Source: an uncultured Methylomonas sp. (GTDB lineage Bacteria > Pseudomonadota > Gammaproteobacteria > Methylococcales > Methylomonadaceae). Taken from it: a DNA stretch of 64,000 bases. The position numbers and the translations under genes are program-made. The stretch covers positions 62,001-126,000 of the forward strand of contig CAKZJE010000031.1 in assembly GCA_936941155.1 (NCBI GenBank), given 5' to 3'. Of the stretch, positions 8,211-62,817 are shown in pieces. Position 1 is the first letter of the stretch. The number at the start of each line of letters is the position of its first letter. The notes under the pieces are model-generated. The model was not told the DNA's origin. It searched no databases and worked only from the letters and a program-made list of their open reading frames with translations.

Positions 8211-8243
8211 ACGACTGGCAGTTTTCAAAAGATTGCTGGTCGT
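8211..8243. repeat. Palindromic repeat, family B (degenerate copy)
   Basis: Inverted repeat beginning ACGACTGGCAG and ending GCTGGTCGT, a diverged member of the ACGACTGGCAGTCCTT family found at five other places here. It lies 10 bases past the second antiporter stop and may act as its terminator. Confidence 0.7.
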
Positions 8244-10159: not shown

Positions 10160-10397
10160 CGAGTTTTTTTGTTGACCGTAGAGACGCAATATTTTGCGTC
10201 TCTACCATTTTGAAAAAATATATATTGCTAAAATGACGATGATTATTTGAAGTAGAAATAACAAAAATTATCAAAACGACCAGTCGTCTTGAAAAAAATT
10301 ATAAGACGACTGATCGTCTTAAAAAATAACAGTTATTTTTATCAGGTAGAGACGCAAAATATTGCGTCTCTACGGGGGCTTATGAAGAGTCAAAAAG
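10160..10397. repeat. Convergent gap filled with two palindromic repeat families
   Basis: Between the convergent kup and purD. Family D: 10178-10205 and 10346-10373, each 28 bases with arms GTAGAGACGCAA / TTGCGTCTCTAC. Family A: 10273-10290 and 10303-10320, 18-base hairpins with arms ending TCGTCTT. So the array reads D-A-A-D. Any of these could end transcription from either side. No ORF or RNA gene seen here. Confidence 0.85.
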
Positions 10398-15462: not shown

Positions 15463-15496
15463 ACGACTGCCAGTCCTTCAAAGGACTGGCAGTCGT
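15463..15496. repeat. Palindromic repeat, family B
   Basis: 34-base perfect inverted repeat, arms ACGACTGCCAGTCCTT / AAGGACTGGCAGTCGT, 20 bases after the pdxA stop. Probably works as a hairpin terminator as well as being a dispersed repeat. Confidence 0.9.
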
Positions 15497-18513: not shown

Positions 18514-19356
18514 ATGGCAAAAATATTATGCGTAGGCTGCGGTGATGTCGGCGGCACAGTTGCGAAACAATTGGCAGAAGCTGGACATCACGTCACAGGG
18601 TTAAAACGCCATCCGCCAGCAAAGGCAGATAAGGTGAATTATGTTGCTGCCGATATTACCGAGGCAGCGCAATTGCAAAATCTAGCGACGGATTTTGACA
18701 CCGTGTTTTTTGTGCTTTCACCAGATAGATACAGTGAAAATGGTTATCGTGCGGTTTATGAAACCGGTTTGGATAATTTACTGAATCATTTTGCCCGCGC
18801 GAAACAATCGCCGCGTTGGTTTTTCACTTCCTCAACCAGTGTTTATGCGCAATCACAGGGTGAATGGGTTGATGAAGAATCAGAGGCTGAACCGGAGAAT
18901 CCGAATAGTCAATTTATCCGCGCGGCAGAGCGCAAAATTATTGCCGCCAATCCTGAAAATATTGTGGTGCGGTTTAGTGGTATTTATGGCGAAGGGCGCG
19001 GTTATTTATTAAGGCTTGCGCAACAAGCTCCTGAAGTGCAAAAAAATCCGCCTTGTTTTACTAACCGCATTCATCAGCAGGATTGTGTAGGCGTGTTGTT
19101 GTTTTTGTTGCAGCAGCAAGCAAATGGAAAATTGTTGGAGCAATGTTATCTCGCTAGTGATGATAATCCCGCGCCGACGTGGGAGGTGATGACGTGGTTG
19201 GCTGAGCAAATGAAATGCCCGCCGCCTAAAGAAAAAACGACGCATAGTGCTGAAATGAATAAACGTTGCAATAATCAGCGTTTGAAAGCGTTGGGTTATC
19301 AATTTCGTTATCCGAGTTATCAAGAAGGGTATTTGCCGCTCATTAATCTAAGTTAA
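18514..19356 (+). CDS. NAD(P)-dependent epimerase/dehydratase-family protein (YeeZ-like)
   Basis: 280 residues, atypical short-chain dehydrogenase. The N-terminal nucleotide loop is VGCGDVGGTVAKQLAEAGH, close to GxxGxxG, and FFTSSTSVYAQSQGEW places the catalytic Ser region; the Y-x3-K pair is not obvious, as in YeeZ-type members. Cytosolic; substrate unknown. It begins two bases after the DUF523/DUF1722 gene, so both are probably one transcript. The stop codon merges with a family C palindrome. Confidence 0.8.
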   Translation: MAKILCVGCGDVGGTVAKQLAEAGHHVTGLKRHPPAKADKVNYVAADITEAAQLQNLATDFDTVFFVLSPDRYSENGYRAVYETGLDNLLNHFARAKQSPRWFFTSSTSVYAQSQGEWVDEESEAEPENPNSQFIRAAERKIIAANPENIVVRFSGIYGEGRGYLLRLAQQAPEVQKNPPCFTNRIHQQDCVGVLLFLLQQQANGKLLEQCYLASDDNPAPTWEVMTWLAEQMKCPPPKEKTTHSAEMNKRCNNQRLKALGYQFRYPSYQEGYLPLINLS

Positions 19357-19387
19357 ACCTTTCAGGTCTTGAAGACCTGAAAGGTTT
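19355..19387. repeat. Palindromic repeat, family C, fused to a stop codon
   Basis: 33 bases, arms AAACCTTTCAGGTCTT / AAGACCTGAAAGGTTT around a single G. It begins in the TAA of the epimerase-like gene and so also works as a hairpin at the transcript end. Confidence 0.9.
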
Positions 19388-29644: not shown

Positions 29645-29677
29645 ACGACTGGCAGACCTTAAAGGACTGCTAGTCGT
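29645..29677. repeat. Palindromic repeat, family B
   Basis: Starts ACGACTGGCAG and ends CTAGTCGT around CCTTAAAGG; slightly degenerate. It lies between gap (start side) and the dacB end, where it could terminate dacB transcription. Confidence 0.85.
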
Positions 29678-33632: not shown

Positions 33633-33665
33633 AAACCTTCCAGGTCTTAAAGACCTGGAAGGTTT
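33633..33665. repeat. Palindromic repeat, family C
   Basis: 33-base inverted repeat, nine bases after the NAD-kinase-like stop; arms AAACCTTCCAGGTCTT / AAGACCTGGAAGGTTT. Likely also a terminator. Confidence 0.9.
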
Positions 33666-33790: not shown

Positions 33791-33823
33791 ACGACTGGCA
33801 GTCCTTTGAGGACTGCCAGTCGT
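33791..33823. repeat. Palindromic repeat, family B
   Basis: 33-base inverted repeat with arms ACGACTGGCAGTCCT / AGGACTGCCAGTCGT. Confidence 0.9.
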
Positions 33824-36097: not shown

Positions 36098-37708
36098 TTA
36101 TTTGGCTTGTGCCGCTTGCAAGGCTTCTAAATTAGCAACGCCTTGTTTTGTGGAGGGATGATTTTCCCCTAACGATTTTTTCAAAATTTCTACTGCGCGT
36201 TGCAATAAAGGCTCGGCTTCTGCGTATTTGCCTTGTGCTTTATAAAGCAGAGCTAAATTATTTAAATCTCTGGCAACAGCTGGATGAATTTTACCTAATA
36301 CTTTTTCATTAATCGCTAACGCTTGCTTGTACAAAGGTTCAGCTTCTGCATATTTGCCTTGAACGCGATAAAGTTCGGCTAAATTATTTAATTCTGTTGC
36401 AACTTGCGGATGCTCTTTCCCTAATGTTTTTTCCCAAATCGCTAACGCTTGTTTGTATAAAGGTTCGGCTTCGACGTATTTGTTTTGTGCATAATAAAGC
36501 ACGGCTAAATTGTTTAAACCTGTTGCAACTTGAGGATGCTCCTTGCCTAAATTTTTCTCCCCAATCGTTAACGCTTGTTTGTACAAAGGCTCGGCTTCGG
36601 CATATTTGCTTTGAACATAATAAAGCCCTGCTAAATTGTTTAAATCAATGGCAACATCAGGGTGGTCTTTACCTAAGGCTTTTTCATCAATCACTAACGC
36701 CTGCTGGATTAAAGGTTCGGCTTTTGCATATTTGCCTTGTGCTTCATAAAGTTCGCCTAAATTGCCTAAATGACTCCCCAAATTAATATGTTCTTTGCCT
36801 AAAAACTTTTTATCAATCGCTAACGCTTGCTTATATAAAGGTTCGGCTTCGATATATTTACCTTGAGTTTTATAAAGCAGAGCTAAATTGTTTAAACAAA
36901 TTGCAACTTGAGGGGGGGGATTCGCCAAAGTTTTTTCCCAAATCACTAACGCTTGTTTATATAAAGGTTCGGCTTCGGCATACTTTCCTTGTGTGTGATA
37001 AAGCTCGGCTAAATTGTTTAAACGAATCGCAACATCAGGATGCTCTTTTCCTAAAGTCTTTTCATCAATTGCTAACGCTTGTTTAATCAAAGTTTCGGCT
37101 GCACTGTATTCTCCCATAATCCAAAGCTGATGTGCTAACTCATTCAAATACAAAGAATTATCTGGCACAAGCTGCACCGCTTGGCTGTAATAGGTTTTGG
37201 CGGCTTGGTAATCCAATTGCAGCACTTTAATCTTTGCCAACGAAAAAGCCTTTTCCGCCGCTTTTAAATTTGCCTGTTGTGCGGCTTTCAAATCATGCTC
37301 TAAGCCCTGTTGCAACAACTGTGCGGCTTCTTCCAGTTTTCCGTCATCCAATAAGGCTTTTGCTTGCTTGGCAACCTCATCGGAACTGTCTGCTAATTGG
37401 CTTTCCAATTCCTTGTACTTCTTTATCCAGTTATCGCGCTCATTTTCCACAACCCCCAACTTTTTAGACAACTCAATCAACTTTTCCAGCGGTGCGCCTT
37501 GATTGATGATGTTGTTATTAATGACGGTTGTTTTTTTGACAGTGGTTTTATTCACCGTTGTTTTACTGCAATTTACACCCACATTACCGCCTGCGTGAAT
37601 TGCGGATGAACAATCACCGCTGGTTGTTTGCTTAATGTCAGTCGCATTCAACGCCGCAAACGGCAACAGCAACACACAGCCACAGATTATTTTTGTTTTA
37701 AAAGTCAT
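36098..37708 (-). CDS. Exported kinesin-light-chain-type TPR protein
   Basis: 536 residues from the ATG at 37708, which has AGGAAA upstream and gives a signal peptide (MTFKTKIICGCVLLLPFAALNA); the longer frame adds 12 unlikely residues. After the signal comes QTTSGDCSSAIHAGGNVGV, a Thr/Lys/Asn-rich stretch, a coiled coil, then two plain TPRs and eight 42-residue TPR units of the kinesin-light-chain sort (core AEPLYKQAL...LNNLAELY...QGKY). The DNA of these units is so alike that the opposite strand shows spurious repeated ORFs. TPR arrays bind protein partners; location is probably periplasmic. xisI precedes it. Confidence 0.85.
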   Translation of the reverse strand: MTFKTKIICGCVLLLPFAALNATDIKQTTSGDCSSAIHAGGNVGVNCSKTTVNKTTVKKTTVINNNIINQGAPLEKLIELSKKLGVVENERDNWIKKYKELESQLADSSDEVAKQAKALLDDGKLEEAAQLLQQGLEHDLKAAQQANLKAAEKAFSLAKIKVLQLDYQAAKTYYSQAVQLVPDNSLYLNELAHQLWIMGEYSAAETLIKQALAIDEKTLGKEHPDVAIRLNNLAELYHTQGKYAEAEPLYKQALVIWEKTLANPPPQVAICLNNLALLYKTQGKYIEAEPLYKQALAIDKKFLGKEHINLGSHLGNLGELYEAQGKYAKAEPLIQQALVIDEKALGKDHPDVAIDLNNLAGLYYVQSKYAEAEPLYKQALTIGEKNLGKEHPQVATGLNNLAVLYYAQNKYVEAEPLYKQALAIWEKTLGKEHPQVATELNNLAELYRVQGKYAEAEPLYKQALAINEKVLGKIHPAVARDLNNLALLYKAQGKYAEAEPLLQRAVEILKKSLGENHPSTKQGVANLEALQAAQAK

Positions 37709-39899: not shown

Positions 39900-39933
39900 A
39901 CGACTGCCAGTCCTTTTGAGGACTGGCAGTCGT
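39900..39933. repeat. Palindromic repeat, family B, upstream of mpl
   Basis: 34 bases with arms ACGACTGCCAGTCCT / AGGACTGGCAGTCGT in the apaG-mpl divergent gap, 32 bases before the mpl start codon. It would form a strong hairpin in the 5' leader if mpl transcription starts before it. Confidence 0.9.
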
Positions 39934-39965: not shown

Positions 39966-41363
39966 TTGCATATTCATATTTTAGGTATTTGTGGCACTTT
40001 TATGGGCGGATTAGCTCTGTGTGCCAGAGAATTAGGTTATCAAGTCAGTGGTTCAGATGCGAATGTTTACCCGCCCATGAGCACACAGCTTGCCGAACAA
40101 GGCATTCAACTCATGCAAGGCTACAAGGCGGAAAATTTACATCCAAAACCGGATTTAGTGATTATTGGCAACGCCTTATCGCGTGGCAATGCGGAAGTGG
40201 AAGCGGTGTTAAATTTGGGTTTGCCGTATATTTCTGGGGCGCAATGGCTTTCTGAACATGTTTTGCAAAATAAATGGGTATTAGCTATTGCAGGTACGCA
40301 TGGCAAAACCACCACAACCAGCATGTTAAGTTGGGTGTTAGAGCATCAAGGTTTTAAACCGGGATTTTTAGTCGGTGGCATTCCGTTGAATTTTGGCATT
40401 TCTGCCCGCTTAGGCGAATCGGATTTTTTTGTGATAGAAGCCGATGAATACGATTGCGCATTTTTTGATAAACGCTCGAAATTTGTTCATTATCGTCCGC
40501 GCACGCTGGTGATGAATAATTTGGAATATGACCATGCCGATATTTTTCCTGATTTGGATGCGATTAAACGCCAATTTCATCATTTAGTGCGAACTGTGCC
40601 GAGCGAAGGATTAATTATTGCGCCGCAACACGAAAGCAATTTAGACGATGTGTTGAAAATGGGTTGTTGGACTCCGGTGGTGCGTACAAACTTAAGGACT
40701 GCCAGTCCTTTAAAGGACTGGCAGTCCTCTGATGCCGCTTGGATAGCGGTTTTACATCAAGCGGACGGCACGGTATTTGAAGTTTTATTGCATGGGCAAT
40801 CACAAGGGCAAGTGCATTGGACTTTGAGCGGTGAACACAATGTATATAACGCTTTATCCGCGATTGCAGCTGCGCATCACGTTGGTATTTTGCCTAGTGC
40901 GGCAATTGAGGCGTTAAACAAATTTCAAAGCGTGAAACGGCGGATGGAAGTAATTGCGAAAATTAACGGCGTGACGCTTTATGATGATTTTGCTCATCAC
41001 CCGACCGCTATAAAAACCACGTTAGACGGTTTACGCAAACAAGTGGCGCAGCAAAAAATTGTGGCGATTGTTGAGCCGCGCTCTAATACGATGCGGATGG
41101 GGATTCATACGGAAAGTTTAGCAGCATCGCTGAGTGCTGCTGATGTGGCGATTATTTATCAACCTGCTGAATTAAAATGGGATTTATCAGCCGTAAAAAA
41201 TCATGCGGCAAATATTGAAATTTACACGAGTTTAGAAGAAATAATCACGCGCTTAACTGCATTGGCAGAAGAAAACAGCCATTTTGTGTTGATGAGTAAC
41301 GGCAGTTTTGGTGGCATTTATCAAAAATTGCAAACAGCGTTAAGTGATGGCGTACAAAAGTAA
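39966..41363 (+). CDS. mpl: UDP-MurNAc:L-Ala-gamma-D-Glu-meso-DAP ligase (Mpl), with a repeat inside
   Basis: 465 residues. Recycles the cell-wall tripeptide by joining it to UDP-MurNAc. MHIHILGICGTFMGG at the N-terminus, AGTHGKTTT P-loop, EADEYDCAFFDKRSKF and YDDFAHHPTA are Mur-ligase family marks. The start is TTG: it matches the family N-terminus and has AGGA nine bases upstream, and no ATG is near. Codons 243-254 or so come from a family B palindrome (40694-40728) lying in frame; from recalled E. coli Mpl, the GCW-to-EVLL gap is 36 residues here against 24. Confidence 0.94.
   Translation: MHIHILGICGTFMGGLALCARELGYQVSGSDANVYPPMSTQLAEQGIQLMQGYKAENLHPKPDLVIIGNALSRGNAEVEAVLNLGLPYISGAQWLSEHVLQNKWVLAIAGTHGKTTTTSMLSWVLEHQGFKPGFLVGGIPLNFGISARLGESDFFVIEADEYDCAFFDKRSKFVHYRPRTLVMNNLEYDHADIFPDLDAIKRQFHHLVRTVPSEGLIIAPQHESNLDDVLKMGCWTPVVRTNLRTASPLKDWQSSDAAWIAVLHQADGTVFEVLLHGQSQGQVHWTLSGEHNVYNALSAIAAAHHVGILPSAAIEALNKFQSVKRRMEVIAKINGVTLYDDFAHHPTAIKTTLDGLRKQVAQQKIVAIVEPRSNTMRMGIHTESLAASLSAADVAIIYQPAELKWDLSAVKNHAANIEIYTSLEEIITRLTALAEENSHFVLMSNGSFGGIYQKLQTALSDGVQK
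40694..40728. repeat. Family B palindrome inserted in frame in mpl
   Basis: Arms AAGGACTGCCAGTCCTT and AAGGACTGGCAGTCCT read through as LRTASPLKDWQSS. The flanking Mpl sequence stays in frame on both sides. Confidence 0.88.
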
Positions 41364-51000: not shown

Positions 51001-51033
51001 AAACCTTCCAGGTCTTTGAGACCTGGAAGGTTT
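51001..51033. repeat. Palindromic repeat, family C, with T-run
   Basis: Arms AAACCTTCCAGGTCT / AGACCTGGAAGGTTT, followed by further Ts, so it has full rho-independent terminator form behind purH. Confidence 0.9.
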
Positions 51034-56966: not shown

Positions 56967-56999
56967 AAACCTTTCAGATTTCTAAAACATGGAAGGTTT
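56967..56999. repeat. Palindromic repeat, family C (degenerate)
   Basis: AAACCTTTCAG...ATGGAAGGTTT with several mismatches in the stem and a T-run after it. Confidence 0.75.
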
Positions 57000-60846: not shown

Positions 60847-62817
60847 TTAATCCGGCTTTGATTTAGGATGAGATTCTAACCAGCCACTGACTTTATCTTG
60901 TAGTTCCAATTCGGTTGCCGGCAATAAACTGCGTGGATCAAATCGCAATTGATAATGCAGTTTCGCCAGCGATTCTAATTCTGTCATTTGCAAACGTTTT
61001 ACCCATTGCGCACTGCTTTCATATTTATTTCTTGCAAATTCCGTGTTTGCAAACTGTGCTTCAATCAAATAAAACGCAGAATCCAAGCCTTGCAAAGCAA
61101 TTGTTTCACGCGAAACATGAGCATTTTGCGTAGTCGTGCGAGTTAATTGTCGTCTCGCTGAATAAATTCGCCAGCCGATATAACAAGCCAACAAGAAAGC
61201 CGCTCCCAACCAAATACTGTTTTGATTTTTATCATGCCGCGCTTGCCATTGTTTCAGTGCGAATAAACGATTGGAAAACCAATCATTTAGCGGCTGAAAG
61301 AAACTGGCTTGTTCATTTTCCATTTCCAGCCATTGTGACGGCGTGGAATCAACCATTTGCCATTTTCCATCAATGTAGGCAATTGCCCACGCATGAGCAT
61401 GACGGCGGCGCACCACATATAATTGCTGCTGCGGATCAAATTCTTCAACGGCATAACCATTTGCCAAACGTGCTGGAATTCCCGCTTGGCGCAGCAATAA
61501 CACCGATGCGACCGCAAAATATTCACAATGTCCGGCTTTGCTTTTTAAAATAAAATTTCGCAGGGCTAAATCCGCATCCGGTTCTGAACCTAAATACAGA
61601 CTGTAATAAAAGTTGTGCCGAAAATAGTGCGTGATTTCAGCAGCAGCGGCTTGAGGTTTCAGTTCTGATAATTTCAAATTGCGACCAAGTTGCATCAACC
61701 AATCGCTATGTTGTTTCGGAATTTGTAAATCATAACGACTGGGTGCGCCATTTCTTTCACCCGTGAAAAACACTCGATAATCGGCAAAGTCGGGTGCGTC
61801 AGTGATTTTTATCGCGCCTAGCGAGTTGTATTGCAAATTTGCCCCTTCCAAACCTGTGACATTCAGCGTGCCATCGGGCAAAGCTAAGATTTCCTCACGC
61901 TTATTAAATTGCTGCAAAATTTCCAACTCTTGCAACGTTTGGTTTTGCGTGGCTTGCACGGGATTGTCATCGCTAAAAACATAGCGCGAGACCGACCAAC
62001 TTTTGCCTAAATAGCGGTCATAACTGGCTTGCAATAAATAGAGTGGTTGCTGTGCTTTCACGCGAAAAACGATTTTATCGGATAATTTCATCTCGCCTAA
62101 ATCGCCAATCGAAGTTTGTGTTTTAAAAGGATCGGCTTCCCAATTTCCTAACCATTCCAAAGAGTTATATTCAATAATATTTTGCAAACGCCGTAAGCCT
62201 TGTTGACCAAAATGCCCGCTGACAATCGCCAGCGTTATCAGAAAAAACCATGCGGATTTTGAGGCGTGTTTCGGGCGCGAACTCCATAACACGGCAATAA
62301 ACAGCGCAATCGCGACGGCAAAATAATTTAAATTTTGCACATTTGCCGCGCCCGCGCTGAGAATCGTTAAAGCGGCGTAGGGGAGTTGAAAATCAATTTC
62401 AGGAGCTGAAGTGAGACCTTCCAAGTTTTTAAAACCTGGAAGGTCTAAGCGATGTTTTTTTTGCGAGAATTGCCGGCGACGATAGGAATAAAACAGTGTG
62501 CCTAGCGGTAATTTTTGTTCGCTGCTGAATAATTGCGCAAACAGTACAGGGCAAAATAATAGCGGCAACCATTTCAACACGATAAAAATCGGGCGTTCAT
62601 CCACTTGCGTCACATACACATACATCAACAGCAGCATCGTTAACAGCGACGCTAAATCACCCCAGCGATAAAATTGTTGCAAGGTAATCTGCCAACGCCA
62701 AGTGATTGATTTATTAATAGTAATAATCAGAAGTAGTCCAGCCGCTGCTATCCATGTTTGCAACAGCCACGCCCACGCCACCAAACTGAAAATTAAAAAA
62801 AACAATGCGCGATTCAT
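60847..62817 (-). CDS. TgpA-like transglutaminase membrane protein, with a repeat inside
   Basis: 656 residues. DUF3488 N-terminal part with about six membrane helices (1-200), then a transglutaminase domain with Cys-His-Asp: SKAGHCEYFAVASVLLLRQAGIPARLANGY (Cys), RRRHAHAWAIAY (His), VDSTP (Asp). DUF4129-type C-terminus after a last membrane helix (about 540). Acts in or near the periplasm; TgpA of Pseudomonas is essential for growth. Residues LDLPGFKNLEGL near residue 126 are encoded by a family C palindrome (62414-62446). Overlaps the DUF58 gene by 4 bases. Confidence 0.9.
   Translation of the reverse strand: MNRALFFLIFSLVAWAWLLQTWIAAAGLLLIITINKSITWRWQITLQQFYRWGDLASLLTMLLLMYVYVTQVDERPIFIVLKWLPLLFCPVLFAQLFSSEQKLPLGTLFYSYRRRQFSQKKHRLDLPGFKNLEGLTSAPEIDFQLPYAALTILSAGAANVQNLNYFAVAIALFIAVLWSSRPKHASKSAWFFLITLAIVSGHFGQQGLRRLQNIIEYNSLEWLGNWEADPFKTQTSIGDLGEMKLSDKIVFRVKAQQPLYLLQASYDRYLGKSWSVSRYVFSDDNPVQATQNQTLQELEILQQFNKREEILALPDGTLNVTGLEGANLQYNSLGAIKITDAPDFADYRVFFTGERNGAPSRYDLQIPKQHSDWLMQLGRNLKLSELKPQAAAAEITHYFRHNFYYSLYLGSEPDADLALRNFILKSKAGHCEYFAVASVLLLRQAGIPARLANGYAVEEFDPQQQLYVVRRRHAHAWAIAYIDGKWQMVDSTPSQWLEMENEQASFFQPLNDWFSNRLFALKQWQARHDKNQNSIWLGAAFLLACYIGWRIYSARRQLTRTTTQNAHVSRETIALQGLDSAFYLIEAQFANTEFARNKYESSAQWVKRLQMTELESLAKLHYQLRFDPRSLLPATELELQDKVSGWLESHPKSKPD
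62414..62446. repeat. Family C palindrome inserted in frame in the tgpA-like gene
   Basis: 33 bases = 11 codons, arms AGACCTTCCA / TGGAAGGTCT. Lies in a loop between membrane helices, where it adds about LDLPGFKNLEGL. Confidence 0.88.

Follow-up and report, generated by a model that had tools for sequence, protein, structure and literature searches.

A dispersed palindrome inserted in frame in the mpl gene of an uncultured Methylomonas, with many further in-frame copies in the same genome

The window analyzed here is a 64,000-nucleotide stretch (contig 31, positions 62001 to 126000) of a 4.26-Mb genome. Judged by comparison with its relatives, a segment of the mpl gene in this window arose when a short mobile palindrome (REP-like, 33 to 34 bp) was inserted in frame. 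We think it probable that a single explanation covers the evidence as a whole, namely, that a mobile palindrome was inserted in mpl, is translated as a surface loop, was probably copied by a RAYT, and belongs to a set of survivors that have passed a filter. By this account, the insertion in mpl would have followed the divergence from those genus mates that have been sequenced, and the inserted palindrome would be translated as an extra surface loop. Palindromes of this type would be copied, probably as single-stranded hairpins by a RAYT-type HUH transposase and without target duplication, and would land in many places, with gene-breaking copies being purged. The survivors would be open copies in a variable loop, read in the frame that gives a tolerated, turn-rich peptide. 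Small additional loops derived from mobile DNA are probably present in the enzymes of this genome, Mpl included.

The palindrome in mpl

The host ORF matches the Mpl model with 681.7 bits, against a cutoff of 388.7. Within it lies the 34-bp palindrome AGGACTGCCAGTCCTTTAAAGGACTGGCAGTCCT (Table 1). The preliminary description had recognized a dispersed palindrome translated in frame within mpl, which was confirmed; its span of 40694 to 40728 took in one extra A, however, and the true start is 40695. It had also held that the reading frame and both flanks are conserved and that about 12 residues are added between the GCW and EVLL blocks. Comparison with the Mpl relatives bore out the former, and the latter is roughly right, the length difference being +7 to +12 in 95 of 109 relatives (full range, −3 to +14). 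Over the two nearest relatives, both of the same genus (G001 and G002), the net gain of the window Mpl is 10 residues. An alignment of Mpl from near relatives had been proposed as the check on insertion. The RTASPLKDWQSS residues were found in none of the 109 relatives (at best, 4 of 12 were identical), all of which span the element site, although several are probably the same genome twice (e.g., L025 and L109, which read identically in the alignment) and not all are independent. The outcome that had been named as refuting the insertion, the same residues in Mpl of relatives lacking family B repeats, did not arise. The closest named Mpl relatives come from methanotrophs, among them Methylobacter, Methylomonas, and Methylomicrobium, which suggests a place for the host in the Methylococcales.

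In an AlphaFold model of the window Mpl (mean pLDDT of 88, 32 sequences), the element block lies between strands 238 to 245 and 259 to 263 and is modeled less confidently than the rest (pLDDT of 71 to 75). The site is a loop of naturally variable length among Mpl proteins, and PDB entry 3hn7 has a long loop there. The segment is presumably translated into protein, and the extra loop may well be neutral.

Five further family B copies lie in the window outside any gene-like ORF, as had been described. Members of a second family, here called C, are also present, one of them in frame in an ORF (Table 1).

Table 1. Mpl gene and family B and C palindromes in the 64-kb window (window positions)
Feature	Position	Strand	Remarks
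Family B-like palindrome, degenerate	8211..8243	.	Very start of a 652-codon open frame, without preceding start codon
Family B palindrome	15463..15496	.	Intergenic
Family C-related palindrome	19356..19386	.	Intergenic
Family B palindrome, imperfect	29645..29677	.	Intergenic
Family C palindrome, AACCT..AGGTT subtype	33634..33664	.	Intergenic
Family B palindrome, 33 bp	33791..33823	.	Intergenic
Family B palindrome	39900..39933	.	Intergenic, upstream of mpl
mpl, UDP-N-acetylmuramate:L-alanyl-gamma-D-glutamyl-meso-diaminopimelate ligase	39966..41363	+	Host gene; 465 codons; TIGR01081
Family B palindrome, 34 bp, AGG..CCT subtype	40695..40728	.	In frame in mpl, residues 244-255 (RTASPLKDWQSS); absent in 109/109 relatives
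Family C palindrome	51002..51032	.	Intergenic
Family C-like palindrome, degenerate	56968..56998	.	Intergenic
Family C palindrome	62415..62445	.	Read as residues 125-135 (DLPGFKNLEGL) of a transglutaminase-like protein of 656 aa (minus strand, 60850-62817), in frame

Two palindrome families across the genome

A strict search of the genome gives 76 copies of family B and none of its reversed pattern, so a chance origin is excluded. For family C (GACCTTCCAGGT..ACCTGGAAGGTC), there are 99 copies when up to 3 mismatches are allowed, with none for the control. Palindromes of 20 to 40 bp in such numbers have the size and copy number expected of REPs of the GTAG superfamily. A total of 130 copies were examined with their surroundings (72 of 76 for B, 58 of 99 for C), a sample that leans toward perfect copies, as the 41 C copies left out have 2 or 3 mismatches and all listed C copies with 0 or 1 mismatch were included.

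At the variable positions, the two arms covary. In B, the second base pair can be GC, CG, or TA, with no mismatch in 72 copies, and in C several base pairs vary together. Arms free of any mismatched pair are found in 45 of the 72 B copies and in 43 of the 58 C copies. All 130 copies have A and T as their outermost bases. Neither family bears the tag of the GTAG or CGTC superfamily: within 10 nt, GTAG was missing from all 144 B flanks and occurred at 3 of the 116 C flanks, and CGTC occurred at 2 of 144 and 0 of 116, respectively. Insertion without target duplication is expected of Y1 transposases. Target site duplications like those of MITEs of DDE transposons were absent, with junction repeats of 5 to 9 nt found at 0 of 130 copies; repeats of 4 nt occurred at a single copy of the 130 (0.63 expected), and 3-nt matches at the in-ORF B copies were above expectation (3 versus a mean of 0.76).

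Common flanks of mpl and the SMC gene (7 nt on the right and 3 nt on the left) were considered as a sign of direct copying between the two, and this was rejected because they fall within the range of control flanks. A repeat unit of ca. 125 bp was also noted, with ends resembling TTAGGAACG and CGCATTCCTAA and a 33-bp B palindrome in the middle (C107:114796, C117:55180, C84:19501, C47:40469, C108:25308, C19:16642, and C47:29532). Elsewhere, four family C copies lie ca. 1 kb apart (C34:7177, 8120, 9117, and 10051).

Host genes and reading frame

The search for other in-frame copies that had been suggested was fruitful. When the ORF had to span 150 codons or more, with no fewer than 8 before and 15 after the element, 54 of the 130 examined copies were in frame, distributed over 48 ORFs and both families (B, 26 of 72; C, 28 of 58). 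Twelve of the 76 copies counted as outside occupy shorter frames or the end of an ORF. In family B, 34-bp copies were found in ORFs far more often (19 of 29) than those of 33 bp (7 of 43; Fisher P = 3.8e-5).

Curated family matches were obtained for 45 of the 48 ORFs (Mpl by NCBIfam and 44 of the 47 others by Pfam above the cutoff), leaving 3 without. The decorated hosts, with names read from the Pfam families, include BirA, type III pantothenate kinase, PolA, MutL, SMC, RecC, a MurE-like Mur ligase, AroE, TilS, RsmB, an RsmE-like methyltransferase, DabA, UreF, a PepN-like peptidase, an AcrB-type pump, and a 2-oxoacid dehydrogenase E2, and by these scans they are functionally unrelated to one another. 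Replication and repair proteins are represented by PolA, MutL, RecC, SMC, a UvrD-type helicase, and a UDG-type glycosylase. For the gene at C83:5386, a surA-like or recC-like identity was discarded, the Pfam scan showing DabA.

From our reading of the match tables, a single domain match spans the element in 17 ORFs. Five ORFs hold two or three elements each. The element falls within the first 34 residues in 9 of the 48 ORFs, in which the true start may lie downstream. Two others (L136 and L205) are without a Pfam match or other support, and a third without a Pfam match (L241) is nevertheless 85% identical to a genus-mate protein over the compared segment. Setting aside the nine early-element ORFs together with L136 and L205, and retaining L241, we arrive at a safe count of ca. 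37 ORFs with internal elements. Because the ORF test detects open elements only, a split-gene control was run on the copies outside ORFs. No out-of-frame split gene was found at the 76 copies, 73 of which had enough flank to test, with a criterion (at least 80 codons open on both sides, same strand) by which decayed genes would be missed.

Since the palindrome reads nearly alike on both strands, only a few peptides are possible. For family C, four combinations of frame and orientation are free of stops, and one of them (DLPGFKNLEGL and close variants) accounts for 26 of the 28 in-ORF copies (P = 4.8e-14 if the four were equal), which are not fully independent, as two lie at the same site in Roco-type proteins and some sites were possibly inherited. 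Insertion is blind to the frame of the gene, yet frame use is biased, which points to selection on the translated peptide. The in-ORF B copies gave TASP-KDWQS or near variants in 13 of 26, DCQSF-GLAV in 5, and other peptides in 8; the five DCQSF-GLAV copies are found in two N-terminal signal-like segments, one AcrB-type pump, one UreF, and one ORF without a Pfam match.

Comparison with genus mates and distribution in the family

The two genus mates, with genomes 90 to 93% complete, have 0 (G001) and 1 (G002) strict family B copies. From 19 chosen gene segments, 16 were compared with both, and 15 aligned across the site. As in mpl, the insertion was absent from the orthologues of these 15 genes, except for a different palindrome at two G002 sites and for tilS, where there was no gain. 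Net length differences between the own genome and the genus mates ran from −4 to +20 residues in 29 comparisons, and a single fixed inserted length was looked for but did not emerge. The relative was shorter by 2 to 20 residues in 25 comparisons, equal in two (tilS), and 4 residues longer in two (mutL in G002 and an NnrS-like protein in G001), and on account of these last two our confidence in the main explanation is slightly lower. Because 34 bp is not a multiple of three and the length differences are variable, the frame is not accounted for by a clean insertion of nothing but the palindrome. To judge from the alignments, native loop residues often seem to have been replaced rather than pushed apart.

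At tilS, the relatives have faintly similar residues, and with no net gain, the element there is probably older or refreshed. At the dabA site (L300:1685-1717 versus C83:5461 of the own genome), G002 has a different perfect palindrome, AGACCTGACAGGT.., meaning that either the two arms changed in concert or one element took the place of another. At pgeF, G002 has a family C variant and the own genome (G000) a family B element. Given these differences at dabA and pgeF, we take some sites to be old or recurrent, with the resident palindrome changed.

Among 151 genomes of the family, C was matched in 29 and B in 15, with the reversed control at 0 in every genome. Copy numbers are patchy (C up to 78, in G017; B up to 76, in the own genome, and 69 in G147), and identical palindrome cores occur across different genera. 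Copies in ORFs, among the matches listed, made up 4 of 6 in G001, 1 of 3 in G002, 2 of 9 in G024, and 0 of 13 in both G017 and G103. Six of these seven proteins have Pfam domains, and the seventh is the RAYT of G001. By these counts, heavy intragenic decoration looks like a trait of the genus more than of the palindrome.

A candidate transposase

On contig 32 of the own genome there is a RAYT-like gene (C32:276-854; L021:276-854), whose 192-residue product matches the RAYT model NF047646 (E = 1.3e-15) with 57.6 bits, under the curated cutoff of 80, and PF01797 at its cutoff of 23; an HFH motif is visible. Both C and B palindromes lie upstream of the gene, and a C variant lies just downstream. 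Close homologues were found in G001, G125, G017, G144, and G066. In all six close RAYTs, a palindrome precedes the start codon by 12 to 22 bp, C or C-like in five and B in the own genome, where C is further out. Moreover, five of the six contain a whole palindrome within the RAYT ORF. Four homologues encode DLPGFKNLEGL, or a peptide with one residue different, at the same place, and the own RAYT has half a B element there; in G066, a C-like variant is near the C terminus. In the relatives' RAYT ORFs L347, L348, L350, and L351, the in-frame palindromes lie near residue 70, with two close together in G017 and G144. In the own genome, a truncated second RAYT start (C32:131-211; 27 residues, 78% identical) lies between a C and a B palindrome.

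Palindromes were found on both sides of the gene in the own genome and in G001, and none was seen downstream for G125, G017, and G144. Two remoter RAYTs, L352 and L353 of G002 and G072, are each bracketed by another 33-bp palindrome, AGAGATAACATCCCTT.. Family C is present in 6 of 7 genomes with a close RAYT, including G053, which is counted on a partial hit and has no C, versus 23 of 144 others (Fisher P = 1.9e-4, not corrected for relatedness); the C-rich G112, G067, and G081 are without a close RAYT. Family B adjoins the RAYT in the own genome only, and no B palindrome was found beside Y1 transposase genes in 17 loci (a subset of the Y1 matches) of the B-rich genus g23. The subthreshold NF047646 match and the lack of the GTAG tag used by studied RAYTs also count against the RAYT. 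A fair case can thus be made for the RAYT as the likely mover of family C, and it is a weak candidate for family B, the family in mpl.

Alternative explanations

That the extra residues are ordinary loop variation, palindromic by accident, fits the variable length of this Mpl loop, but it is refuted by the exact recurrence of the same 34 bp elsewhere in the genome, with a reversed control of 0, and we give it practically no credence. A functional RNA or DNA hairpin (a translation ramp, an attenuator, or a protein-binding site), kept for regulation rather than as a tolerated passenger, would agree with the strong fold of the mpl element (−29.2 kcal/mol, z of −8.2), which stands out in its mRNA context as well (z of −6.1), and with arms that are largely paired across copies. 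We regard it as improbable, given that the element is absent from mpl in all 109 relatives, that the host genes are functionally unrelated, and that a hairpin needs no particular frame, yet nearly all C copies use the same one. The segment could also be bypassed by the ribosome or spliced out, giving a protein without it. Short mobile hairpins within genes are known as byp elements in some yeast mitochondria, and the palindromes recall them. Skipped elements, however, could carry stops or frameshifts, whereas no split gene was found at the outside copies and frame use is strongly biased. The case against bypass rests on the split-gene control, with the bounds on that control given above, and makes this explanation very improbable.

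More weight attaches to the route of spread. The copies may have multiplied by gene conversion or template switching between them, or a transposase may have acted on a larger repeat unit; the RAYT would then be a mere neighbor. Motifs of the ca. 125-bp unit accompany 7 of the 36 B-33 copies outside ORFs, B is missing from the 17 Y1 loci of g23, and the dabA site has different perfect palindromes in G000 and G002. On the other hand, the unit motifs accompany 0 of the 26 in-ORF B copies, and palindromes are found beside 6 of 6 close RAYTs, with another 33-bp palindrome on both sides of the two remoter ones. We see such a route as a serious although unlikely alternative to copying by the RAYT.

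Starting from a mobile palindrome moved by a RAYT, a bolder picture can be drawn, which we offer only tentatively. A tyrosine transposase and untagged 33-bp palindromes would keep adding tolerated turn-rich peptides to the proteome (ca. 48 ORFs), host selection would have fixed one frame, and the transposase of the relatives, carrying its own palindrome in frame, would link element and enzyme in one gene.

Relation to known elements

Rickettsia palindromic elements (RPE) are dispersed palindromes of ca. 150 bp, in frame in unrelated Rickettsia protein genes (PMC10969869). The likeness to RPE noted in the preliminary description holds, as the palindromes here are likewise read in frame in protein genes unrelated to one another, with 54 copies distributed over 48 ORFs, and are absent from orthologues in the genes compared. 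With in-frame insertion in unrelated genes and so many further in-frame copies, they appear to work like RPE. They differ from them in size, having 33 to 34 bp and 11 to 12 residues, are set beside them by description only, and reside in a 4.26-Mb genome. The description had added "but in a gammaproteobacterium," which is right for the host but does not stand as a novelty. Thioalkalivibrio too is a gammaproteobacterium. Intragenic REPs have been reported in several bacteria, including in uvrA of Thioalkalivibrio (PMC3733652). The same source equates some intragenic repeats of R. conorii with RPE-4 and RPE-6 and describes some RPE families as short REPs.

The intragenic REPs that Di Nocera et al. 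(2013) reported from several bacteria are of the GTAG and CGTC types, and many of them lie in genes of DNA synthesis and repair, such as those for UvrABCD, RecBCD, and Pol I (PMC3733652). The palindromes described here are likewise short and located in ORFs, often of repair genes, but GTAG and CGTC are absent within 10 nt in nearly all copies, and the frame bias and the palindrome inside the transposase ORF are not described for those REPs in the available text of that paper. RAYT genes flanked by REPs were reported by Nunvar et al. (2010) (PMC2817692), and Di Nocera et al. described them as flanked by REPs or other inverted repeats, along with cases of overlap between such repeats and the ends of the transposase gene (PMC3733652). 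Such REPtrons or TIRtrons (a RAYT or TIRYT gene with flanking repeats) resemble the RAYT-like gene adjoining members of dispersed palindrome families here. In a study of TnpAREP, however, the GTAG motif served in recognition or cleavage to varying degrees (PMC8266576), whereas here the palindrome has plain ends on both sides, and the relatives' RAYT ORF itself holds a palindrome copy. Perfect inverted repeats translated within genes are also known from nematomorph mitochondria, where they reach 284 bp and where the available text mentions no dispersed family with a transposase (PMC6649704).

Among the matches listed from the open-licence literature, we found no report of these palindromes in methanotrophs and no precedent for their scale. 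What is new here is the combination of untagged palindromes, two families that behave alike, many genes, a strong frame bias, and a self-decorated transposase, for none of which was a precedent found in that literature among the matches listed; translated or intragenic palindromes were already known from Rickettsia and other bacteria. Protein-coding mobile palindromes are extended by this case to a large genome outside Rickettsia, with two families and a candidate transposase. The genus mates, with empty sites or other variants, allow tests of how protein loops arise from mobile DNA, of which frames persist, and of whether enzymes such as Mpl, PolA, or MutL are altered by the loops.

Other repeats in the window

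Additional dispersed palindrome families are present in the window: GTAGAGACGC.. (10178, 10346, and 15555), GACGA..TCGTC (10264-10329, 15676, 33674, 34944, and 56921), and TGTAGGTGCG.. and similar sequences (54245 and 56813). The window also contains a tandem repeat with a period of 126 bp, the units of which are 71 to 75% alike, at positions 36156 to 37085.
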